Positions 1,475-12,786 of a stretch of 12,954 nt of DNA are shown one piece after another. The notes under the pieces are model-generated. The model did not search any database. It saw only the letters and a list, made by a program, of their open reading frames with translations, and was not told the origin of the DNA. The position numbers and the translations under genes were made by a program. The stretch's first letter is position 1. Each line of letters starts with the position of its first letter. The stretch spans positions 1-12,954 of the forward strand of contig JALLAP010000431.1 in NCBI GenBank assembly GCA_036939355.1, given 5' to 3'. The stretch is from Thalassiosira profunda. Its lineage: Eukaryota; Bacillariophyta; Thalassiosirophyceae; Thalassiosirales; Thalassiosiraceae.

Positions 1475-2875
1475 TTATTCGGCATCCGCGCCGCCCCACC
1501 CGTTTGGCAGTGCCACCACTCCCCCAACCTCAGGTGCAAGCACATGCTTCCAAAGCTGCATCGACGCCTCGAGCGAAGTGCTTTCGCTTGCTGCGTACCC
1601 TCCCGCTCGTCCGTTGGCAAAGTACACCTGCTCCGATGCGGATGGAGCAGAATAGTCCAATGCTGAAACGATTGCTTCCGCACCTTCGGAGGAACTTTTG
1701 TAGAGTAGATTTGCCAGGCCAGTTCGGGTGAGAGATGCCACCGCCTTATCTCCAATGTGATTGCGGAGCAGTGGTGTCCACACCAAACCAGGGTGCGCAT
1801 CATACACTCGAATGGGAGACGCGCCGCTGGGAGATGCGCCGCTCTTTGGTAACCAATGCCGCAGAAGTGTTGTAAATTGCATCAAGGCCAACTTTGATCG
1901 GGAGTAGACGGACAAGTCCTCGTCTGCCTCCTCTGACAGCGATTCTATCCATGATTTGCTGTTGCCGTCGCTTCCTATCGACGAGAGGTACCCTTCATCT
2001 ATCACATGCGTTGCGCGTAGATGAGCGGAGGAGCCAACATTGATGACCGTAGGCGGGGTGTCGCTTTCGCTCTCCTTTGCAGCCTGGGCCATCAGAGGCA
2101 GCATGGCAAACGTCAGCATCGCCGGTCCCAACAGATTCACTTTCATCGTCAGCTGTTTCGACTTCCCCATGATCCCCGCGTTGTTTATAAGAATTCGCGT
2201 CGGCGATGCAAGGCCTTCGACAGCCGATGCCACATCCAATGCACTCCGCGGCACATCGGCGTGGTATTCCACGAAGGAAATGGTGGGCAAATCTCCCTCT
2301 TCGCCATCCCGGATCGGGGTCTTTTTTAGCACGCCCCGAATGTCCTTCACCAACGCTTCTCCCCTCGCAGAATCACGGGCTGCAACGACAACATCGTATC
2401 CTCGGAGCGCAAGGGAATGTGCAATCTGGGAGCCGATCCCGCCGGTGGCGCCCGTCACCACTGCAATTTCGTGCTTCGGTGGCTGCCTGTAGATTAATGT
2501 ATCCTCCATTTCCAGCCTCTGCTGCTTGCTGGTAAATAAACGCGTTTGCAACCAGCCGAAATTGCGGATGAAGACGTTGTGGAAGATCTCCCCGACGATG
2601 CCCCGAAGTGCCCATCGCAGATTGTTGCTCTTCCTCATTTTGCGTTTGGTGGCCTTTGGCTTGGTGGCAGCAACGGGCGTCGTCAATTTCGTCATGGCGG
2701 AGTGTGACTCTGCGGCAGGTTCAGTGATAATAGGATGCGATACCTCCTCGACCGATTCCTTTGCTGCTGCGGAGAGGGGCGCCGTGCGATTTTTCCTGCC
2801 GCTGCCCGCGACGAGTGCAGATGCACCGAGGCTGTGAAATGGAAGAAGGAACAGGGCGGCCGCCCACGGCTTCAT
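1475..2875 (-). CDS. short-chain dehydrogenase/reductase, retinol-dehydrogenase/POR-like, with N-terminal leader
   Basis: Start chosen at the ATG 2873-2875 (MKPWAAALFLL), stop at 1475-1477, 466 residues, no intron needed. The frame stays open to an ATG at 3034, but that extension is low-complexity Ser/Pro-rich sequence that runs into the inverted repeat at 2988-3020, and it hides a good signal peptide. Residues 1-20 are hydrophobic and end in GASA|LVAG, compatible with ER entry and possibly with a plastid or other organelle leader. Residues 30-130 are basic and unstructured-looking. The Rossmann core follows: TGATGGIG (141-148), cofactor binding; NNAG (231-234); VNLLG; Ser in VGSSAH (281-285); catalytic Tyr324 and Lys328 in YSRSK; and HPGLVWT (361-367). 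All classical SDR catalytic elements are present, so an active NAD(P)(H)-dependent oxidoreductase is expected. Substrate unknown; the family includes retinol dehydrogenases and protochlorophyllide reductase relatives. Confidence 0.85.
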   Translation of the reverse strand: MKPWAAALFLLPFHSLGASALVAGSGRKNRTAPLSAAAKESVEEVSHPIITEPAAESHSAMTKLTTPVAATKPKATKRKMRKSNNLRWALRGIVGEIFHNVFIRNFGWLQTRLFTSKQQRLEMEDTLIYRQPPKHEIAVVTGATGGIGSQIAHSLALRGYDVVVAARDSARGEALVKDIRGVLKKTPIRDGEEGDLPTISFVEYHADVPRSALDVASAVEGLASPTRILINNAGIMGKSKQLTMKVNLLGPAMLTFAMLPLMAQAAKESESDTPPTVINVGSSAHLRATHVIDEGYLSSIGSDGNSKSWIESLSEEADEDLSVYSRSKLALMQFTTLLRHWLPKSGASPSGASPIRVYDAHPGLVWTPLLRNHIGDKAVASLTRTGLANLLYKSSSEGAEAIVSALDYSAPSASEQVYFANGRAGGYAASESTSLEASMQLWKHVLAPEVGGVVALPNGWGGADAE

Positions 2876-2987
2876 TACCGTAGAGCCCGGCCCCGCCCGC
2901 CGAGCCAACACAAAGAGACAAGTGGAAGGTGCGTAGTAGCGTGGAAGCACGGACGGACTCACGGACAGAGTGGAAGTGGAAGTGGAA

Positions 2988-3020
2988 GGGTGACTTGAAA
3001 TGGGAGTCAGATTTGGGCCG
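2988..3020 (+). repeat. left 33-bp terminal inverted repeat
   Basis: Reads GGGTGACTTGAAATGGGAGT and on to GGGCCG; its exact reverse complement is at 4044-4076. A weaker match continues a few bases inward, then similarity is lost. Confidence 0.85.
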
Positions 3021-3321
3021 ATTTCACGTGACATATCACGGGTTCGTCACGGGGCATTCGCCAACCAAAACGCCGGACAGACGCTGCGACACTTTGCGCG
3101 GTTCCCTCCCGCACAAAACAACGCGCAAACGAGAAGACAAATCGCTCCCCTCCCGGCATCGTGGCACTGCCCGCACCGGCCGTGCGGTGGACGGCACGGC
3201 CGGCCGGAGATCTCGCCGTGCGGCCGACATGTCTGCGCTGCCGCCCGCCCATTCGGCCGCCGGCCCTTCTCCGTGTGCATCGCGCCCGCGGCCTAAGACT
3301 GCAAGAGATCGAGGGGCCTAC

Positions 3322-3471
3322 AACCCTAACCCTAAACCGAATCGGATCAGGCTAGGGTTAGGGTTATTTTGAACCCTAACCCTAATGCGAACTTGACCAG
3401 GTTAGGGTTAGGGTGATTTTGAACCCCAACCCTAACCCTAACTCAACCAGGTTAGGGTTAGGGTAATCTTG
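3322..3471. repeat. three tandem 50-bp units, each a CCCTAA/TTAGGG hairpin
   Basis: Units are 3322-3371, 3372-3421 and 3422-3471, each exactly 50 nt and aligning without gaps. Each starts AACCCTAACCCTAA (the third starts AACCCCAACCCTAA), has a variable centre (…ACTTGACCAGG in unit 2), then reads TTAGGGTTAGGG (CTAGGGTTAGGG in unit 1) and ends in (G/A)ATTTTG or a close variant. Each unit is therefore an inverted repeat of two telomere-type hexamers per arm. The order CCCTAA then TTAGGG is opposite to that made by end-to-end chromosome fusion. The constant period points to tandem duplication of a unit and not to telomerase addition. Confidence 0.85.
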
Positions 3472-3646
3472 CAACCAAGGAATTACACCTGCAACCATGG
3501 TGGCCGCCGCTCCCCCAGCCCCGCCGGCGGCAGTAACGGCCGGCGCGGCGCCGCCGACCCCGTCGGATATTAGTACTGCATCTAATCGATAAGGCTGCAG
3601 CGTTATAACGGCATCCATTAGGTTTAAGGAGGTCAATATCGCTTCG

Positions 3647-3673
3647 CCGCCTGCACCGCCGTCGTGCAGGCGG
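3647..3673. repeat. 10-bp GC-rich hairpin
   Basis: CCGCCTGCAC at 3647-3656 and its perfect complement GTGCAGGCGG at 3664-3673, separated by 7 nt. It lies in the GC-rich inner part of the 2988-4076 element, near a second small palindrome CGTTATAACG (3601-3610). It may be structural; no coding or RNA-gene role is visible. Confidence 0.4.
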
Positions 3674-3866
3674 GGCGACGAGGCCGTTACGCCGCGTCGA
3701 TGGCCCTGGCGGCGGCGTCGACCCACCCGCGCGCTGCGGACGGATGGGGCATGAGCGTCCGAGGGCGCGGGAACGATCGGCGCGGCCGGCAGGGGCAACG
3801 GCGGCGAGGGGTTATAATTCAGGTTATGGGTTTTCACTGTTGTATGAACTATGGGTTGTAGGCAGC

Positions 3867-3882
3867 TTAGGGTTAGGGTTAG
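3867..3882 (+). repeat. isolated telomere-like run
   Basis: TTAGGGTTAGGGTTAG, followed by one more TTAGGGTTA at 3889-3897. It lies inside the 2988-4076 element about 400 bp from the 50-bp array and is not flanked by the array's unit sequence. Confidence 0.6.
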
Positions 3883-4043
3883 TGGTCATTAGGGTTACAG
3901 ACTTAGCGTTTTTTTTTGTTGTTGCCTGTGTTCTTGCTACCTAGTACTTGGTGGTAGATGCGGGGGGGGGGGAGGAATGGGTGGTTGTCAAGAGCTGGCC
4001 GGGAGGCTTTTAGCGAGCTAGTGACTGACGAGTCCCGCGAAAC

Positions 4044-4076
4044 CGGCCCAAATCTGACTCCCATTTCAAGTCACCC
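4044..4076 (-). repeat. right 33-bp terminal inverted repeat
   Basis: Reads CGGCCCAAATCTGACTCCCA and on to TCACCC; exact reverse complement of 2988-3020. TGGAAGGGTG follows immediately at 4077-4086 and matches the sequence at the left border (2983-2992). Confidence 0.85.
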
Positions 4077-4312
4077 TGGAAGGGTGGGCCCGATTGTTCG
4101 ACGTTGTTCCTGAGCGAGCTTTCTCTCGGTGAAATCGCCGCGATCTATCAGAACGCCGAATCTCCGAGAGGCCGAGCGAGCAGGGTCGGCGGTTGCTCTT
4201 GCATCGGCGGTGAAGTGGGCGGCGGCGGCTGCCGACGGTCTCATAAATCAAAAGATCGTCAAACGCAAAAGTGAAAGAGATACCATACCAACACAACCAA
4301 CACTCATCACTC
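4077..4312 (+). promoter_or_regulatory. 5' region of the CoA-disulfide reductase gene
   Basis: 236 nt between the right inverted repeat and the start codon. The part next to the ATG (from about 4250) is A/C-rich and free of G runs (AACACAACCAACACTCATCA), as expected for a 5' UTR. No TATA box is clear. The proximity of the inverted repeat suggests the element could influence this promoter; that is inference. Confidence 0.3.
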
Positions 4313-6265
4313 ATGACCAACAACGCAGACAACAACGGGTCGAAGAAGGGGCAGAAGCTCGTCGTCATCGGCGGCGTGGCTGGCGGGGCCAGCTTCGCGG
4401 CGCGGGCGAGGCGCTTGGACGAGTCGGCGGAGATACTGATGCTACAGGTACGTGATTCAATCTTGTGCATATGATGTGAGCACTTCTTGATTCGTCGCTC
4501 ACGTGTTGCATACGGTTCGCTTCACTCAACCGTCCAGTCTGGCCCCGACGTGTCCTTCGCAAGCTGCGGGATGCCCTACTTCATTGGCGGCGAGATCACC
4601 GATAGGAATCAGATGGCCGTTCAAACTCCGACGAGCCTTAGGAAGAGGTTCAATATCAATGGTGAGTAGCGCGTTTGCAGGAGTAGTGGTTGCATCACAT
4701 GTGTGAGCTGCTCAATCCATCTTTGCAACATTGCAGTCCGAGTGAATACTCGCGTCATCCAGATCGACACGGATGCCAAGACGGTAACCGCCATTGACGA
4801 GACTCAACCAAACTCTGCCGTCTCCACCACGCACTCGTACGATCAGCTGGTTCTCGCGGTTGGATCCGAGCCACTCAAACCACCGATTCCCGGCATCGAC
4901 CGCCCAGGGCTCTTCGCCCTGAGGAATCTCCAGGATATGGACGCCATCGTCTCGTGGATTGCCGCCCTGCCCACCAAATGTGACACTTGCTCTGGGTATG
5001 AGTCGCGGATGCACGCGGTTGTCGCGGGCGCCGGATTCGTCGGCCTAGAAATGGTCGAGCAACTTCAACGCCGCGGTCTGGAAGTGACGGTTGTCGAGAT
5101 GCTGCCGCAGGTTCTTGGCCCGCTCGATGTCGAAATGGCGGCAATTATTGAGGAGGATATGAATCGGCGAGGAGTCAACATCGTCACCGGTGATGCCATC
5201 CAGGAGTTTCTGCCCAACAACGGCGACGACAAGGACGATCCAAGCACGATTGTCAAGCTTCGATCCGGACGGATGCTGCCTCCGGCTCAGATCACCATCC
5301 TCGGTATGGGAGTCCGTCCCGACACGAAGGTTGTGAAGGAGGCCGGTATCGAATGCTCGGGCCGTGGCAATCACATAGTTGTCGACGACTACCTGCGCAC
5401 AAACAAGCCCGACGTTTGGGCCGCCGGTGATGCAATCTTGGTCCGTAACCCTATACTTGGAAACGACGACGAGATGTGGGCCGTTCCACTGGCTGGACCG
5501 GCGAACCGCCAGGGACGAATGATCGCGGACAACGTGTACGGCATGAAGCGCAAGTTCAAAGGAACGTATGCGGCTTCCGTTGTCCGAGTGTTTGACTTGG
5601 TGGCTGCCTGTGTTGGCATGAACGAAAAGATGCTTGCAGCGAAGAACATCGCGTACGAGGCTGTGCATGTGCATCCAGGATCTCACGCGGGCTATTTCCC
5701 GGGCGCCAAAAGTGTCAATTTCAAGCTCATCTTCAGCCCGGACGATGGCAAAATCCTCGGGGCGCAGGCCGTGGGCGAGGACGGCGTGGAGAAGCGGATT
5801 GACGTCATCAGCACGGCAATCCAGGGCGGGCTGAGCGTGGAAGATCTCGCGGAGTTGGAGCTTTGTTACGCCCCACCTGTTGGCAGCGCCAAGGACCCCG
5901 TCAACATCGCAGGGATGGCGGCCGCAAACATCCGCGACGGCCTCGTGGAGCAGATTCAGTTCACGGAGTTGCATAAAGCCGCCAGTACGCCTGGAACTGT
6001 CGTATTGGACGTTCGCAATGTTTCAGAAGTGAGCAAGAATGGAGCCTTGATTGATGGGGCAATCAACATCCCGCTCAACGATTTGAGGTCCAGGATGGAC
6101 GAGCTTCCTTCCGATGCCAAACGCGTCGTGGTATCGTGCGCCAGCGGGCAGAGGGCTTATTATGCCACGCGGATCCTAAAGCAGAGCGGCCGTTTCGAGC
6201 AGGTCCAAAACCTCGCCGGCGCATTCAAGACGTACGACAAGGTCCGCAATCGTCTGCCGAATTAA
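4313..6265 (+). CDS. CoA-disulfide reductase-like FAD/NAD(P)H oxidoreductase fused to a rhodanese domain
   Basis: Three exons, 4313-4447, 4538-4661 and 4737-6265, give 595 residues; the junctions restore ...EILMLQ|SGPDVSFASCG and FNIN-V-RVNTRV, which follow the family alignment. Order: FAD-binding GGVAGG (20-25); the redox Cys55 in FASCGMPYFIGG, as in CoA-disulfide reductases, where a single Cys forms a mixed disulfide with CoA; NAD(P)H-binding GAGFVGLE; second FAD motif VWAAGDAI; dimerisation domain with GKILGAQ, KRIDVI, CYAPP and GSAKDPVN. The C-terminal ~90 residues form a rhodanese domain (LDVRN; CASGQR with Cys554). By family knowledge the reductase part reduces CoA disulfides, persulfides or polysulfides with NAD(P)H, and the rhodanese part supplies or accepts sulfane sulfur. 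No leader peptide is visible, so a cytosolic location is likely. Length is close to bacterial CoADR-RHD proteins. It converges on the prolyl hydroxylase gene, with 88 nt between stops. Confidence 0.9.
4448..4537 (+). other. intron 1 of the CoA-disulfide reductase gene (90 nt)
   Basis: Donor CAG|GTACGTG at 4448, acceptor CGTCCAG| at 4537, phase 0. Removal joins ILMLQ to SGPDVSFASCG, placing the redox Cys motif at the expected distance from the FAD motif. Confidence 0.85.
4662..4736 (+). other. intron 2 of the CoA-disulfide reductase gene (75 nt)
   Basis: Donor AATG|GTGAGT at 4662, acceptor ACATTGCAG| at 4736, phase 1. The split codon G|TC becomes Val and restores FNINVRVNTRVIQID, as in family members. 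Confidence 0.85.
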
Positions 6266-6353
6266 CGGCAGCCATGGGTCAGTAGGAGTGTTGTATTAGA
6301 ATAAGCAGACCTTCGTTGAGAGTCGATTCCAAACCGTAAGCTCCCATCCGCTT

Positions 6354-8717
6354 TCAGTTGCTAATCGGATCCCAGATCCACAAGTTGGCCACGAACTTTA
6401 CGCCCTTCTCGACCTTCCCGCCTGCGTGCTGACTCAGATCGTCCATATTTCCATCGGGCAACACGTTATAAAAGACGACCGCCTTTCCGGACTGCGGATT
6501 TATTTTGACGCCATCGTGGAAGTCGGCAGTGACAGCTCGAGGAAAGGTCGTTTCTCCTCCCTTGAGTCCATTGCCGCCGTCCGACGATGATGCAGAGCGA
6601 CGAACGCCATTTTCAACGACATCGCCCTCGCCCGTCAAGTAGAGCAGCACGGTGGCATATCGCTTTGGCTGGTATCGGTTCTCAATGGATGGATATGTGA
6701 AATCGTGATGGGCCGAGTATTCCTCTCCCCGTCCGTATCGTAGCAGCTGCATGGCCTCAACGATGCGATCGTGTGTGTGCAACTCCCTCTCGCCTTCTTC
6801 TGCCTCCGAGTTATCTCGAGGCTGGTCCCTCATCAAGTTCTCGTCAATGCTCAGCAGATCTGCCACGCGATGGAAGATTGTATCCACAATTGCATCTTGT
6901 TCGCGATGAATCCAACCACCGGACGATGAGCGGGCGTCCGCCTTCGTTGCTCGAGCCTCTACATTCGCATTGCTCGCCGAAACGGTCGACTGCTTCATCT
7001 GCACATCGCCTTTGGTGCCCGAGGCGAGATCAATGAGATGCTGCACCTCCGCGGGCGAGAGGAATTTCTTAACCTCGAGAACTCTGGGAGCGACACTCCG
7101 GACTTTGAGATTGAGTTGCATGGTGGCATCGTCGCTGTTTGCGCCCTTCTGCTTCAAACTGCTCGATTGGAACGGTTTCGTTTCCAGGCGCCGTCTCTCG
7201 TCAGCTTCAGGGAGGTAGTCATCCTTGGTCAGGCGTTCCAACGATTGTGGAAGCGAGGTGAAGTACAAGTTCGACGTTTCGATTGTGTGCGTCTGGCCGA
7301 TGTAGTCCGCTTGCCACATGTGCAGTCCAAGCTCCTCGTCGGCGTTCACATAGGGCTGCGGAAAGTTGGCAAGCCACACCCTTCCAGTCTTGATTAAGTA
7401 ATCCCTCCCAAAGGTGCGGTCGACCGCCCATGCATCTCTGTCGAACCTCTGCTTTGCGGTCAACTTCGCCAGCTGATCCCTCTGCTCCTTCGACGACAAA
7501 TCCTCCAGCGGATCGTAATACAAAATCGGCTCGTCTTCCGTGACGGCCCACCTCTTCAGCTGGTGCCCCTTATCATACGTCGGAGCCAGGTAGAACGAAT
7601 GCCCCGGGAAGCTGGCCGTGCCAATGCTCTCAAATGCGGGCACCGTTCCAACAAGCACGGTGTGCATCTCGCCGGCCCGCGATCCCGATGCGATTCGTCC
7701 GCCGTCCCAGTACAGATTCAGAGGCTGCGGGGATAAGTTGACGAACTTCATCGCGTATCCTGTAAAGGTCAGCGAGGCCGGGGGCATGCCGTAGTTCGGC
7801 TCCCGTTCCGCAGTGTCGTGCTTGCTTCGATAAAAGGTCGAGACGTGCGGTTCTTTGTACACCTTGGTAGTTCCGCGAATGGAGCGTCCGGAATATTTGT
7901 TGAGCGAGTATTGATGCAGCAGGCATATATGCTGGCGATCCACCGAAGTTGATGGCAGATGAGACCGAACGATGGACTCGGTTTGGTCCAGCATCAATCC
8001 CTCTCCCTCGTTGGCGTCGAGGAGTTCGTCCACCTCGTTCATTATCTTGTCGGATTCGTAGCTCCCGAGATAGTTCACGTCCTCATAGACCATGCTGGAG
8101 TCCACTCCCAGCGCATCCGCCAAGTAGTACGAGTGCAGGACGCGCACGCTGGGCTTCAGTGGGAGGATGAACTCCAGCTCCACCAATTTGTCGTTGCTGT
8201 TTTCCGTAACACGAGATGCGTCAGTGTTGGTGGGGCAGAAGGAGAGGCCGCCCGTGCGCTGGAAATTCCTCGCCCTCGCGTGTCCTCTAGTATCTCTCTT
8301 CGTTGCGCCACCCGGTGCCTTTCCGAGGGCGCGCTCCAACGCCCGTCTGCTCTGGGAGGCGGGGATGACGTCCATCGACGGCGCCGCGTAGGGCGCCTCC
8401 CCCACAACGCCTTCGGTATGAATATCCTTCGCTGCCTCCCATCTTTGTCTCACGGCGTGCCAGTCCCTCGCCAGCTCCTCCCTCCACGCACCGAAACCGC
8501 CCTGGAGGTTGGCGTGGAAGGCCACCGCTGCAACGACGGCCACGAGGACCGCGAGCAGATGCTGCTTCAGCTCGCCACACCCGCCAACGTCCCTCTCTGC
8601 CTCCTCCTCGCCGCACTCATCCTCCGAGTCGGAGTAGTGCTCGGTGGTGCAGGGCTGGAGGTCCATCTCCTCCTCCGGGTAGCAGCCGCCGCCGTCGCGC
8701 TCTCCCCCCTGCACCAT
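6354..8717 (-). CDS. membrane-anchored prolyl 4-hydroxylase (2OG/Fe(II) dioxygenase) with large N-terminal region
   Basis: ATG 8715-8717, stop 6354-6356; 787 residues without introns. Residues 1-45 are acidic; 53-69 (HLLAVLVAVVAAVAFHA) form one membrane span, giving a type II topology with the bulk probably in the ER/Golgi lumen. The catalytic domain is at about 540-787: iron ligands H670 and D672 in YSAHHDF and H764 in SQHAGG, and the 2-oxoglutarate-binding K774 in KGVKFVANLW; GGETTFP at 720-726 is also typical. The enzyme hydroxylates peptidyl proline using 2-oxoglutarate, O2, Fe(II) and usually ascorbate. Most algal and plant P4Hs are about 280-350 residues, so about 470 residues (70-540) are extra. 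Within them, 321-380 (KFVNLSPQPLNLYWDGG ... FPGHSFYLAP) resembles the beta domain of VHL, which binds hydroxyproline; that part is inference. The target protein is unknown (cell-wall or secreted glycoproteins are candidates). Confidence 0.88.
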   Translation of the reverse strand: MVQGGERDGGGCYPEEEMDLQPCTTEHYSDSEDECGEEEAERDVGGCGELKQHLLAVLVAVVAAVAFHANLQGGFGAWREELARDWHAVRQRWEAAKDIHTEGVVGEAPYAAPSMDVIPASQSRRALERALGKAPGGATKRDTRGHARARNFQRTGGLSFCPTNTDASRVTENSNDKLVELEFILPLKPSVRVLHSYYLADALGVDSSMVYEDVNYLGSYESDKIMNEVDELLDANEGEGLMLDQTESIVRSHLPSTSVDRQHICLLHQYSLNKYSGRSIRGTTKVYKEPHVSTFYRSKHDTAEREPNYGMPPASLTFTGYAMKFVNLSPQPLNLYWDGGRIASGSRAGEMHTVLVGTVPAFESIGTASFPGHSFYLAPTYDKGHQLKRWAVTEDEPILYYDPLEDLSSKEQRDQLAKLTAKQRFDRDAWAVDRTFGRDYLIKTGRVWLANFPQPYVNADEELGLHMWQADYIGQTHTIETSNLYFTSLPQSLERLTKDDYLPEADERRRLETKPFQSSSLKQKGANSDDATMQLNLKVRSVAPRVLEVKKFLSPAEVQHLIDLASGTKGDVQMKQSTVSASNANVEARATKADARSSSGGWIHREQDAIVDTIFHRVADLLSIDENLMRDQPRDNSEAEEGERELHTHDRIVEAMQLLRYGRGEEYSAHHDFTYPSIENRYQPKRYATVLLYLTGEGDVVENGVRRSASSSDGGNGLKGGETTFPRAVTADFHDGVKINPQSGKAVVFYNVLPDGNMDDLSQHAGGKVEKGVKFVANLWIWDPISN

Positions 8718-9099
8718 TGCCTAGTCGAGGTTCACCTCCTGCTTCACCTTCGCTTGCAAAATAAAAAGTGAACCCAGCGGCGCGCGCCACAACTGCAACG
8801 GTCAAGACCCCACGAGTTGATCCCGACTTACCTACTTCAACTTGACCGTAAAATTTGGGGGAGAAAAGAGGTGGGGTCTAATTTTATTGGACGCACCCCC
8901 CCGCCCACTGCCAACTGCCAAGTCCGTTGGCCTGACGGCCACTCCTCCCCGCACCAGCACCTCTCGTCCGCGGTCGCCCTCCGTATTAGAGCCCCCGAGC
9001 CGGCAGTTGTCAGCTGGAGAAGCGCGAAAGCCGCTGCATTGATTGTATAAGCGGAGTAGCCGGGCGGGCAACGCCGAGAGAACATACGAGCCGAACGCG
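8718..9099. promoter_or_regulatory. divergent intergenic region between prolyl hydroxylase and small membrane protein
   Basis: 382 nt between divergent start codons. It contains A/T-rich stretches (AAAATAAAAAG at 8758-8768, AAAATTT at 8850-8856), a C-run (8897-8903) and TTGATTGTATAAGCG at 9039-9053. The TATAA here lies 47-51 nt before the ATG at 9100 and could be a core promoter element. No convincing coding sequence is present; the minus-strand open frame that crosses this region is judged fortuitous. Confidence 0.3.
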
Positions 9100-9255
9100 A
9101 TGACGATGGAATCGGCTTTGGAATCGGCGTGGACGTTCCTCAAGGTGACGCTCGCCTGCTCGCCCATCATAGGTATCGTTGCAATTTTGGCATTCGCGAG
9201 GGAGGACGAGGAGATGGAGACCGCGAAGAGGAAGGTGAAGTGCGCGCGGAGCTGA
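9100..9255 (+). CDS. small single-span membrane protein, unknown
   Basis: ATG 9100-9102 to TGA 9253-9255, 51 residues. An amphipathic N-terminus (MESALESAWTFLKVTL) leads into a hydrophobic segment, about residues 18-31 (LACSPIIGIVAILAF). A highly charged C-terminus follows (REDEEMETAKRKVK). Positive charge after the span suggests the C-terminal tail faces the cytosol or matrix. The frame is open further upstream to 9043, but the GTATAA there looks like promoter, so the ATG at 9100 is preferred (a second ATG follows at 9106). Size and layout resemble accessory subunits of respiratory or photosynthetic membrane complexes, but no specific family is recognised. Support is limited to composition and codon use. 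Confidence 0.4.
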   Translation: MTMESALESAWTFLKVTLACSPIIGIVAILAFAREDEEMETAKRKVKCARS

Positions 9256-9669
9256 TAAATGGAACGGTGGGCGATGGCGCAGTAGGATGAGTGGCGTTCG
9301 ACATGAGGAGGCCAGTTGATGCAAATTGCACCCCTCAATGCGCCCGTCCACTGACAATTATCAAAATTAGCGTGCGCAGCAAAAGTTACTGGAATGACGG
9401 TCTCGCAATCACATCGAACGCCGATGCTTGCGTGAAAGACCTGAGAATGTAACAAAACATTGCGCGTGGCGAGGGATGGATACTATTGGTTGAATGAGCG
9501 AGGTTGAGATCAGTCGAGCGAATTCTATTCTATTCTGTACAAATTATTACGGCCGGAAGCAAATCAACCGAATAAAGGAAGGGCGTCTGTTCCGTGCTGG
9601 CATGAACTGTCACGTGCGTCCAACTATGTCCAGAAAACGCATGTGCTTTGCCCACACCAGCAAGGTCTT

Positions 9670-9726
9670 TCAGGCCGCGATGCATGCGCTATCAATCGAT
9701 GCAGCACCCACATCTGCGGCCGTCAT
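9670..9726 (-). ncRNA. candidate SECIS element in the GPx 3' UTR
   Basis: Read on the minus strand, the segment starts ATGAC at 9726 and ends TGA at 9670, 52 nt past the GPx stop codon. GGCCGC and GCGGCC pair perfectly next to the ATGA/TGA quartet, with the unpaired C after ATGA placed as in known animal GPX SECIS elements. A second helix follows after a bulged A (GATGTGGGTGCT with AGCGCATGCATC, two G-U-rich steps and one mismatch), closing a ~12-nt loop. The usual unpaired AA or CC in the apical loop is missing and the helix is longer than normal. It is either a divergent SECIS or a coincidental stem. Its position and quartet make it the best candidate seen. Confidence 0.45.
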
Positions 9727-9778
9727 TCACATTCCTCTTCCTCCCATTTCAATTGTTGTATGCATCCCACCGTCTCTT

Positions 9779-10596
9779 TTAACTGCTCCCTCCAGCCTCC
9801 TTCTTCTTCAACAGCTCCTCGATGTCCGACACCATATCGTTCGGATTCGTCTTGGGACTGTACCGCTTGAACGGCGTCCCCTCGTGATCCACCAAGAATT
9901 TCGCAAAGTTCCACCGAATGTCCGTGGTCCGGTCCTCGGCGGGAAGCTTCGACTTCAAATACGAATACACCTCACGCGTACTCGCTCCATTGACGTGGCC
10001 CTTCTCGAACCACGTGAATTTGTTCTTGGCGCCGAATTTGCTCTCCACGAAGTCAAGGATCTCCTCGGGAGTTCCCTGTCGCATAATTGCAAAGGAAGGT
10101 GAGTTGTGCGACAGATCATATACACAGAACTGAAACGGAAGTATTGTAGGGCACTCACCGGCTCTTGGGCACCGAACTGGTTGCAGGGAAACGCCAGCAG
10201 GCGCAGGCCCCGCGCACTGTACTCGTCGTACAGCTTGGAGAATTGGACATAGTTGGCTTTCGTTAGCCCTCATTTGGACGCGACGTTGACGACGCAGAGG
10301 ACGTCGCCCTTGAACGCTTCCAACTTGACCTCGTGCCCATTCATATCGCGGTCCACGAGGTCGTAGAATGAAGACTTGTCTGCACCAATAATTGCAATTC
10401 ATTAGATGAGATCGTGCGTGCAACCCCACCCCCCAACGCGATGACGCACGCAGAACGACCCCATTCACATCTCGTGACACCACTCACCGGTGCCGGCGTC
10501 GCTCCCAAACATCAACTTGGTAGCCCCATCCTGGAGCTTCGCGAGCACTCCCATGGTTCTCTTGGATTGCAATTGTAGGGCCGCGGTGCGGAGCAT
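9779..10596 (-). CDS. GPX: glutathione peroxidase (GPX4-like), selenoprotein with in-frame UGA
   Basis: Exons on the minus strand: 10596-10488, 10379-10159, 10075-9779; 208 residues counting selenocysteine. The UGA at 10270-10272 falls exactly on the catalytic position: VNVASK-U-GLTKANY (U73), where other GPx have Cys or Sec. The rest of the tetrad is intact: Gln104 in FPCNQFG, and Trp165 and Asn166 in RWNFAKFLV. GTPEEILDFV, KGHVNG and YSPKTNP are also typical. The family reduces lipid and hydrogen peroxides with thiols (glutathione or thioredoxin). The first ATG (10596) gives a short basic leader, MLRTAALQLQSKRT, compatible with mitochondrial import; a second in-frame ATG at 10554 could give a cytosolic form. 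The frame stays open both sides of the UGA and both introns are standard, so this is not a pseudogene. It is transcribed divergently from the gene at 10815, and a SECIS-like stem lies after its stop. Confidence 0.9.
10076..10158 (-). other. intron 2 of GPx (83 nt)
   Basis: Donor GAGCCG|GTGAGT at 10158, acceptor ATGCGACAG| at 10076, phase 0; splicing restores NQFGAQEP-GTPEEI, a continuous GPx motif. Confidence 0.9.
10270..10272 (-). other. UGA selenocysteine codon of GPx
   Basis: AAA-TGA-GGG in the frame VNVASK-U-GLTK. The codon aligns with the catalytic Sec/Cys of the family. The reading frame continues correctly for 135 further residues across another intron. Confidence 0.9.
10380..10487 (-). 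other. intron 1 of GPx (108 nt)
   Basis: Donor ACCG|GTGAGTGG at 10487, acceptor ATTGGTGCAG| at 10380, phase 1; the split codon G|AC gives Asp, leading to DKSSFYDL. Confidence 0.85.
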
Positions 10597-10814
10597 CGGC
10601 TGCAGGAGTGGGATGGCGTGGCGGAGGGGAGGTGGAGGTGGGGGCGCGAGGGTCGAGGGGAGAATGACACGCGCCCAGAAGTACGTACTTACGAGTACCG
10701 ATAGGTACCTAACCGCTGTTGATGACCGCGCCAGGCGCTCAGAGGCGCGCGCTCCCAAGCTCCCATCAAATCTGCACCCCCAGCAGAGACCCCCCGCCAA
10801 AGCAAAGCGCCCCC
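10597..10814. promoter_or_regulatory. divergent promoter between GPx and the 10815 gene
   Basis: 218 nt between two divergent ATGs. On the GPx side the sequence is C/T-rich when read towards the gene, as in a 5' UTR. In the middle is a palindrome-rich block, AAGTACGTACTTACGAGTAC (10679-10698), followed by GGTACC (10704-10709). The word AAGTACGTAC also occurs upstream of the GNAT gene (1336-1345). Motif function is inferred from position only. Confidence 0.4.
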
Positions 10815-11647
10815 ATGGCGCCTCTCGCCCTCCTCGCCGGGCTGGTTGTCCTCTACAACATCGGGGCCGATCGGTACTCTCGTTGGAAGCTACGGGAAAT
10901 GGCATCGGTCCAGCCCTTCGAGGTCATCGATCCGACTGCATCCGGAAGTGAATTGATGATTGATGGCCCGTCACAGCTGAAGCGAACGGTGTCGCGAAGG
11001 ACGGGCCTGGTTGAAAACCCAGCCGACCGAGTTGCATGGAACACGTGGATTCAATCGCCCACTGGTCTGGCGCTCGACCGAGACAATCCCATTTCTCCTG
11101 GAAGGTACGCTTCACGTATCGATCAAACGTCAAGAAGGACGAAGCGAATTCAATCAAAAAGGCCCTCTTCCACATTCCAACATTACTCGGCTTCGTGTCG
11201 AAGGGAGAAGAGTGCATGGTTATCGATAGCGACGGAGGTGTCGTCATGATTGGACACTTTCGCAACCTTAGGCGCCTCACATCATATGAGATTAGGTGGA
11301 ACGGACACGTTGTATCTCATTCAAGCGGGCGGCCCTGCATACAATGGGATGGCACTGCCATGGTAACAAGAAGATTAGGGAAAACGACGACAACGTTGAA
11401 CCCGCCGATGAGCGAGAAACTGAGAAAAGCTCCCTGGATTATCCTGAAGGTAGACGGAGGACTGATCTGCTTCCGCGAAGAAGACGCGCCCTTTCATCTC
11501 GCGGCCGAGCCGGCGCAGTTTGTCGCGCACGAGAGGCGTATATTTGCCAACATCAGCGCCCTCGACATCACAATCGCCGCCTCTGGGAATAATTGCAACG
11601 CCGTCAACTGTGGCGCCTCTGATGTGCAGTCCGTTTTCCCGGTATGA
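10815..11647 (+). CDS. unknown protein with N-terminal hydrophobic anchor; gene structure unresolved
   Basis: ATG 10815 starts MAPLALLAGLVVLYNIGADR, a short membrane anchor or signal, then about 80 residues with ordinary codon use (…SVQPFEVIDPTASGSE … RVAWNTWIQS …). Near 11104 the convincing frame changes. The first frame degrades into Arg/Ser-rich sequence up to a stop at 11249, while another frame becomes protein-like from 11105 (VRFTYRSNVKKDEANSIKK … CMVIDSDGGVVMIGHFRNL) and stays open to TGA 11645-11647. A donor GAAG|GTACGC lies at 11105, and acceptors at 11229 (GATAG) or 11271 (CTTAG) would restore the second frame with introns of 125 or 167 nt, but these remove part of the protein-like stretch. 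A one-base error or a real frameshift are alternatives. The 3' part overlaps an antisense ORF (11375-11734). No family recognised. Confidence 0.4.
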
Positions 11648-11734: not shown

Positions 11735-11768
11735 GGAGGAGAGAGGGCGGGCTTGCGCTGCGCCGATA

Positions 11769-12050
11769 GGCCTCGGGAAAATTACAAAGCCACTTTGGCC
11801 AAATTACAAAGTGAATTACAAAATCACGGCCTACGTGATTCCTACGTAGCTTTTGTACCAGTCACATCACGACATATCACGTCACAAAGTCACGCTCTCT
11901 CACGTCACGCCTTCTACAAGGTCTTTTACAAAGTGTGACCATCACGTGACTTCCATTTGTTAGTGAAAGCTAGCGTTGTAATTCACGTGAATTTTGTAAT
12001 TTTCGCTCCTCCAAAACTCCCAAATTACAAAATGGAATTTTCCCGAGGCC
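11769..12050. mobile_element. 282-bp MITE with TA target-site duplication (Tc1/mariner-like)
   Basis: Perfect 15-bp terminal inverted repeats GGCCTCGGGAAAATT (11769-11783 and 12036-12050), each flanked by TA (11767-11768, 12051-12052). The interior is A/T-rich, with repeated ATTACAAA/TTTGTAAT words and several CACGTG and TACGTA palindromes, and no ORF of note. Size, TIRs, TA duplication and lack of coding capacity fit a miniature inverted-repeat transposable element mobilised by a Tc1/mariner-type transposase. A second related end lies at 12221. Confidence 0.75.
11861..11910 (+). repeat. cluster of TCAC(G)/TCACGTCAC words inside the MITE
   Basis: GTCACATCAC, ATATCACGTCAC, AGTCACG and CTCACGTCACG follow one another in about 50 nt, with CACGTGAC near 11943. 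These resemble bZIP-type half-sites (CACGTCA/TGACGTG). As they lie within a MITE they could bring regulatory sites to neighbouring promoters; this is inference. Confidence 0.35.
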
Positions 12051-12220
12051 TATGCCTATCTACCTAGCGCCGAGCCAGCTTTGCGTTGCACTTCTTTATG
12101 TCATAGAATCTACATACGTAGGAATCAATACATAAATTGGAGGGATACAGCGGAGGAACTCGTATAGGAGGGTAAGCGGGATGACGGACGTACACAAAAA
12201 TCCGCCCCAATCCCAAATTA

Positions 12221-12321
12221 GGCCTGGGGAAAATTCCATTTTGTAAATTTGGGGGGCTCGAGGAGCCAAAATTACAAAATTACAAAGGAAATTACAAATC
12301 ACACGTGATCTTCGACGCTAG
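12221..12321 (+). repeat. left end of a second, related MITE copy (truncated or diverged)
   Basis: Preceded by TA (12219-12220), it starts GGCCTGGGGAAAATTCCATT and matches the inverted right end of the 11769-12050 MITE for about 100 bp. Shared blocks are CCATTTTGTAA, GGAGC, AAAATTACAAAATT and ACGCTAG. No opposite end is seen downstream, so the copy is broken or its other end is too diverged. Together with the first element it makes a large inverted repeat around a 168-bp spacer (12051-12218... starting after the first element). Confidence 0.6.
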
Positions 12322-12786
12322 ATTTACGCTTCGCCACTTGCGCGTGATCGTCGCTGTGTGACTCGCGCGTGGGTGTTGGGACACACACCCGAATCTCTCG
12401 CGAGCGCACTTACCGGATTTCGCCGCCGCCCACCACGACGCGGGCCGGCGACTTTGGGCTTTGCCGAGCGGGGATCGGACCCTACTAGGACGCCGGCGTT
12501 GAAAGTCCGCGGTTGTGTCAGAGGCCGTTCAGTTTTAGTCGCGTTAGGTCGCACAAAGCCCCTCCGCAGAGACGAGTGCTCCATCAGACGAGCAAACCGA
12601 CGAGCGACGGGGCCAACAACACACCCAGCGTACCCTCCTGGGGTAGTGTGTGGCGGCTGGGGGTCGGGATTGGCTCTTGAGGCGCCGGTATCCAGTGTGG
12701 GACTGCACTTCTATCTAGGTAGTGGTTGTATGGTAAAAAGGAAAATCGAGTATGCGCAGTCCTAGAATGCCTTAGCGCTCGCTCCG
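12322..12786. other. 465 bp without a convincing gene
   Basis: GC-rich at first, then mixed. A frame open from 12358 to 12765 is rich in Arg, Gly and Pro, starts only with GTG, and shows no domain or good codon use, so it is not called. No tRNA, rRNA or repeat was recognised. The last part must contain the upstream region of the gene starting at 12787. Confidence 0.4.

Follow-up and report, generated by a model that had tools for sequence, protein, structure and literature searches.

Contig JALLAP010000431.1 of the diatom Thalassiosira profunda (12,954 bp, analysed over its whole length and hereafter called the window, or C430 when compared with other contigs of the same genome) carries an inverted-repeat element of 1,089 bp at positions 2988-4076, located between two divergent genes. 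We consider it probable that this element is a non-autonomous, mosaic Mutator-like element (MULE) that went into the promoter region from which the two genes diverge, and for which we infer both transposition in trans and an exchange of cargo. Its left end matches a MULE locus on another contig and its core is found again inside further inverted-repeat elements, in agreement with an earlier note on this DNA that described a non-autonomous element, situated between two genes and loaded with repeats of telomere type. The unusual part is the cargo of inverted telomere-like units, which is common to several elements; comparison of the sequences indicates one telomere-repeat module inside three kinds of ends.

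The element is bounded by terminal inverted repeats (TIRs) that are perfect over 33 bp, as the earlier note had reported, and the arms remain 93% identical over 46 nt (2987-3032 / 4032-4077). Its proposed lack of a transposase was likewise borne out, none being recognised: the four longer open reading frames (ORFs) within or overlapping the element that were scanned against Pfam (2929-3372, 3000-3296, 3007-3252 and 3382-3837) gave zero matches over the cut-off. Weak Pfam hits to EACC1 (0.006) and cpSF2-GREB1 (0.32), both under the cut-off, were set aside. The 5-bp TGGAA proposed as a target site duplication (TSD) is present at both borders but is ambiguous; it adjoins an (AGTGGA)n tract, grows to 7 bp when the left boundary is shifted by 2, and the 10-mer TGGAAGGGTG is present at both element borders, and for these reasons it constitutes weak evidence of a target duplication. 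The coordinates of all these features are collected in Table 1.

Table 1. Features of the window discussed in the text (positions on the 12,954-bp contig).
Feature	Position	Strand	Remarks
Short-chain dehydrogenase gene	1475-2875	-	PF00106, E 1e-17; likely start 2875 (by eye), 112 bp from the element
TGGAA, left copy of possible target duplication	2983-2987		Ambiguous
Left TIR	2988-3020	+	33 bp perfect, imperfect to 3032
Left end module	2988-3289	+	Homologous to left end of C178 MULE locus
Core module M1 with telomere-like units	3264-3550	+	Common to C867 and C117
Three 50-bp units	3322-3471	+	Consensus AACCCTAACCCTAANCCGAACTTGACCAGGTTAGGGTTAGGGTTATTTTG; each unit can be aligned across C430, C867 and C117
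Core module M2	3486-3785	+	Common to C867, C61 and C597 (C597 fragment from 3606)
Core module M3	3808-4002	+	Common to C867; TTAGGG hexamers at 3867, 3873 and 3889
Right TIR	4044-4076	-	Pairs perfectly with left TIR over 33 bp
TGGAA, right copy of possible target duplication	4077-4081		Ambiguous
CoA-disulfide reductase-like gene with introns	4313-6265	+	Start 4313 (by eye), 236 bp from the element

Fourteen of the 15 TTAGGG/CCCTAA hexamers of the window lie in the element and one elsewhere, compared with a mean of 0.44 and a maximum of 4 when the element was shuffled 1,000 times at the mononucleotide level. The TTAGGG-rich interior of the earlier note is thus confirmed, but not its description as arrays: 11 of the 14 hexamers are located in three tandem 50-bp units with a layout of roughly (CCCTAA)2-spacer-(TTAGGG)2, and since the hexamer pairs run in both orientations these units are not telomere arrays. 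The units are internal, none being found at the TIR tips, which read GGGTGACTT. Folded as single-stranded DNA, the 150-nt stretch that they form gives a z of -7.9, with 0 of 200 shuffles equally stable, and the whole core folded as RNA gives a z of -4.75 (0 of 20 shuffles equally stable), as expected for GC-rich inverted repeats. Regarding structured RNA, Rfam gave no match at the gathering score; six of its eight sub-threshold matches are to microRNA families, which we take to reflect hairpin shape.

Relatives of the element and a possible source of transposase

BLAST of the element against its own genome gave at least 14 matches on at least six contigs, and all six first-look candidates were scored. 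On contig C178, positions 7344-7620 match the left end of the element only, with 90% identity over 289 aligned bases of 2988-3289 in a local alignment and 83% over 2988-3264 by BLAST. The left TIR of the window is also found there (C178:7344-7387, with one T fewer), and the 16-mer GAGTCAGATTTGGGCC occurs at C430 and C178 only, among 77 loci compared. The core is shared with contig C867, where 7789-8459 correspond to 3295-4002 of the element (83% by BLAST); in 50-bp bins the identity is 92-100% over 3300-3749, 65% over 3750-3799 and 91-97% over 3800-3999, and within 3486-3730 it reaches 240 of 244 aligned bases. Contig C117 matches the telomere units, approximately the first 60 bases of M2 (by eye) and part of M3 (3808-3925), which sits in both inverted arms of its element, while C61 and C597 match M2 only. 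The homology to C178 ends about where that to the other cores starts (3264-3289), and the multiple alignment is a mosaic in which the core is common and the ends are different: the C867 element displays its own 48-bp TIR (98%), and the C117 element has perfect inverted arms of 276 bp, with core parts lying both within these arms and in the stretch that separates them.

The M2 fragment of C597 (5413-5821) lies amid ATCGC/CATCGC simple repeats and between apparent short inverted ends (GGAAGAAACAAGAT, by eye); this is perhaps a fourth element carrying M2. An inner minus-strand ORF of 151 aa was considered as a coding core and rejected as a gene, with stops in frame in C867. Compared with C61, 45 of its 297 aligned bases differ, distributed 20/10/15 over codon positions 1/2/3, counts that come from coordinates converted by hand across five alignment blocks with frame shifts within the alignment. 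In the own genome this ORF matches four contigs besides that of the window, at element and M2 loci only. Elsewhere, among 1,024 candidates that were scored, it matches five metagenomic ORFs, none of them named, whose contigs are 501-1,227 bases long; two of these ORFs leave the shared translation ahead of the telomere-unit part, which suggests that M2 is present in further contexts beyond this genome. As for a viral origin, the M2 pattern was not found in a viral contig collection that may leave out records near the own genome; in the same collection, and under the same limit, five stretches matched a transposase peptide pattern and none encodes a relative.

A candidate source of transposase is found on C178, where an ORF of 1,015 aa (9997-13041, minus strand) contains a SWIM domain (PF04434, 1.1e-6, over the cut-off) and a MULE domain (PF10551), the latter with 27.1 bits in one scan, slightly below the cut-off of 27.6, and 29.1 bits, over the cut-off, in another. 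Nine homologues of this ORF were found, six of them with PF10551, and both named ones are from Thalassiosira. A relative with 41% identity (E 3e-139) is located at C533:7028-9052, and the ends of the C867 element match, side by side, both ends of the approximately 7.3-kb C533 stretch that holds it (3998-11289, right end about 11289). By eye, the C117 ends resemble those of C867/C533 in their outermost bases (GGCARCCTCTA), so that these two end types may be distantly related; the window end differs.

In the mechanism we propose, the left end would derive from a C178-type MULE whose interior was replaced by a cargo of approximately 740 bp with three telomere-like 50-bp units. A MULE transposase from elsewhere would recognise the ends and move the element in trans, and the cargo would pass between kinds of element through template switching or gap repair, a spread that GC-rich hairpins and the repetition of telomere-like tracts may promote.

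A number of observations weigh against this reading. At C178 the right TIR was not found, which is why this locus is not an established intact partner, and the transposase gene is split into ORFs whose frames differ where they overlap, near 12945-13041; an intact autonomous element was therefore not recognised at C178. PF10551 has six matches in the own genome, four of them over the cut-off, and C533 is not among the six, for which reason its transposase was assigned through similarity to the C178 ORF. For the ends of C117 no associated transposase was found. At C219:4638-4985, upstream of a peroxidase-like gene (named by reading its translation), lies a paralogous site that lacks the C117 element, but it is a diverged paralogue and no clean empty allele. 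Target duplications are absent at C867 and C117, and the match at the window is an ambiguous one of 5-7 bp. Finally, the earlier note had named several full copies with different flanks, and an empty site, as signs of mobility; BLAST returned one full copy with the window TIRs, which is a lower bound, and no empty site for the window insertion in the own genome. A TIR pattern search returned C178 only, but it used the C178 form with one T fewer and missed the TIRs of the window itself, hence it says nothing on further copies of the window type.

The single full copy, the lack of an empty site and the ambiguous duplication could also be read as a local rearrangement that produced inverted repeats in a promoter with no mobile element involved. 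We regard this as very improbable, given that the end module is common to C178 and the core to C867 and C117, with different flanks each time.

Origin of the telomere-like cargo

The genome contains 208 occurrences (128 + 80) of the 13-mer TTAGGGTTAGGGT in 21.8 Mb, compared with 4 for a reversed-pattern control; 100 of these places were listed and 10 loci were read. Three of the ten are arrays at contig ends (C32, C38 and C76) and the other seven, at C3, C10 (two loci), C12, C54, C55 and C68, are short tracts in contig interiors; the host thus has true TTAGGG telomeres together with many short interior tracts. No telomere array was found at the ends of the contig of the window; the end arrays are on other contigs. 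A subtelomeric position, which the earlier note had raised, is left without support by this distribution, although it may still apply, given that the window is an entire contig of 13 kb.

With short TTAGGG tracts so common, the cargo could be a captured piece of host promoter or intergenic DNA, in the style of Pack-MULEs, an origin compatible with the mosaic MULE that we favour and to which we give somewhat less than an even chance. The excess of the 13-mer, the short interior tracts at seven of the ten loci and degenerate AACCCTAACCC stretches resembling those of the core at C22 and C178 are consistent with such a capture. On the other hand, the exact inverted-unit pattern ACCCTAACCCTAA-N6..30-TAGGGTTAGGGTT has seven matches at three loci only (C430, C867 and C117), all of them elements, and no host locus that could have donated the core was found in the own genome, where the counts are lower bounds.

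The abundance of interior tracts would also agree with units generated inside an old element by telomerase-mediated repair of double-strand breaks, since such insertions, known as interstitial telomeric sequences, have been described in vertebrates (PMC8537989; this source and those cited below are used from excerpts). We find this unlikely, as the three 50-bp units are regular, resemble each other in their spacer, alternate in orientation and can be aligned in three elements. Because the units are alignable one by one in C430, C867 and C117, the unit array is probably older than the spread of the core.

Other features of the window and of the MULE loci

The protein of the CoA-disulfide reductase-like gene has as its best relative a Thalassiosira profunda protein (95% identity, among the best 120 of 7,996), which points to a Thalassiosira-like centric diatom as the host. 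On the minus strand of the window, 10159-10380 encode an exon of a glutathione peroxidase (PF00255, 4.4e-25 when TGA is read through), in which a TGA stands in frame in the context NVASK-TGA-GLT. This codon presumably falls at the catalytic Cys/selenocysteine place of the family, and judging from the sequence the enzyme is likely a selenoprotein. No selenocysteine insertion sequence (SECIS) was found, Rfam being without a match in the window at the gathering score. A second cluster of inverted repeats resembling miniature inverted-repeat transposable elements is located at 11766-12053 and 12219-12325; it is rich in AATTACAAA and has arms of 21 nt at 95% (11766-11786 / 12033-12053) and of 63 nt at 86% (11990-12052 / 12219-12281).

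Both MULE loci encode a second protein beside the transposase (C178 about 7995-9764 and C533:9156-9602; 33%, E 8e-11), with further homologues at C32:29097-29477 and C347:1645-2124. Just upstream of it in C178, on the same strand, lies an ORF with DUF6824, and the two may form one gene. No solved structure matched the gene beside the C178 transposase, and a tentative identification as a dioxygenase, suggested by sequence motifs, was dropped. WRKY19-type zinc-finger repeats are common to the ORF that precedes the MULE transposase of C178 and a neighbouring gene (C178:6493-7209 and 13799-14522), which are also alike in their upstream sequence (70% over 757 bp).

Relation to known systems and possible roles of the cargo

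The diatom MULEs of group 37 ('MULE-Diatoms') are listed with a SWIM finger, TIRs of 123-124 bp and the entry 'No TSD and not indicated' (PMC6446971, Table 1), in a superfamily with TSDs of 8-11 bp (PMC6446971), and the diatom entry agrees with the absence of duplications from C867 and C117. The elements described here resemble this group in the SWIM-type transposase at the C178 locus, the TIRs and the lack of a clear target duplication; they differ in that the window element is without a transposase, has TIRs of 33 bp and carries a telomere-like cargo for which the excerpt of PMC6446971 makes no mention in diatom MULEs. A telomere-repeat cargo in MULEs or diatom transposons was likewise not found in the titles and abstract starts among the open-licence matches listed. 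A MULE-type end around foreign interior DNA and a mosaic make-up recall Pack-MULEs and other non-autonomous MULEs, but no host gene fragment was identified and one cargo lies inside three kinds of ends. The telomere-bearing elements (TBEs) of ciliates are also DNA transposons carrying telomere-like sequence; theirs is at the TIR tips (PMC7325037), while that of the window element lies in the interior, arranged as inverted pairs.

Interstitial telomeric sequences and transposable elements bearing teloboxes share with the window element short tracts of telomere type that are not at chromosome ends. Transposable elements that Polycomb repressive complex 2 (PRC2) targets where DNA methylation is lacking often contain teloboxes (PMC8788455), so that telobox-like motifs in transposable elements were already known; the present case differs from these in its regular inverted 50-bp unit, part of a cargo common to differently ended elements. 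According to the same review, teloboxes recruit PRC2 in Arabidopsis, interstitial telomeric motifs nucleate trimethylation of histone H3 lysine 27 (H3K27me3) in Neurospora, and diatoms possess PRC2, with H3K27me3 abundant on the transposable elements of Phaeodactylum (PMC8788455).

By analogy with these precedents, the units might bind a telomere-repeat factor and recruit PRC2 or other chromatin proteins, silencing the element and its neighbours or steering insertion. The location between two divergent genes and hexamers that are mostly intact in the one-by-one alignable units of all three elements would agree with such a function. The conservation of M1 is, however, not above that of its neighbour (98% for M2 and 92-96% per 50-bp bin for M1, between C430 and C867), and we judge a functional cargo to have only a small chance of being correct. 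Slightly less probable still is the stronger proposal that diatom MULEs with different ends exchange the module as a functional component, a platform for telomere or Polycomb proteins through which MULEs seed telomere-like control sites in promoters; if true, it would give MULEs silencing, nuclear positioning or target choice. In the likeliest interpretation the telomere-like tracts simply hitch-hike as passive cargo.

The presence of the same telomere-like block in three differently ended elements suggests an exchange of cargo between transposons, and the insertion in the window places telomere-type motifs in a divergent promoter. The review cited above (PMC8788455) leaves it undecided whether the recruitment of PRC2 to genes through teloboxes goes back to the targeting of transposons or the other way round, and natural elements that either have or lack the block would make this direction testable in a unicellular alga.
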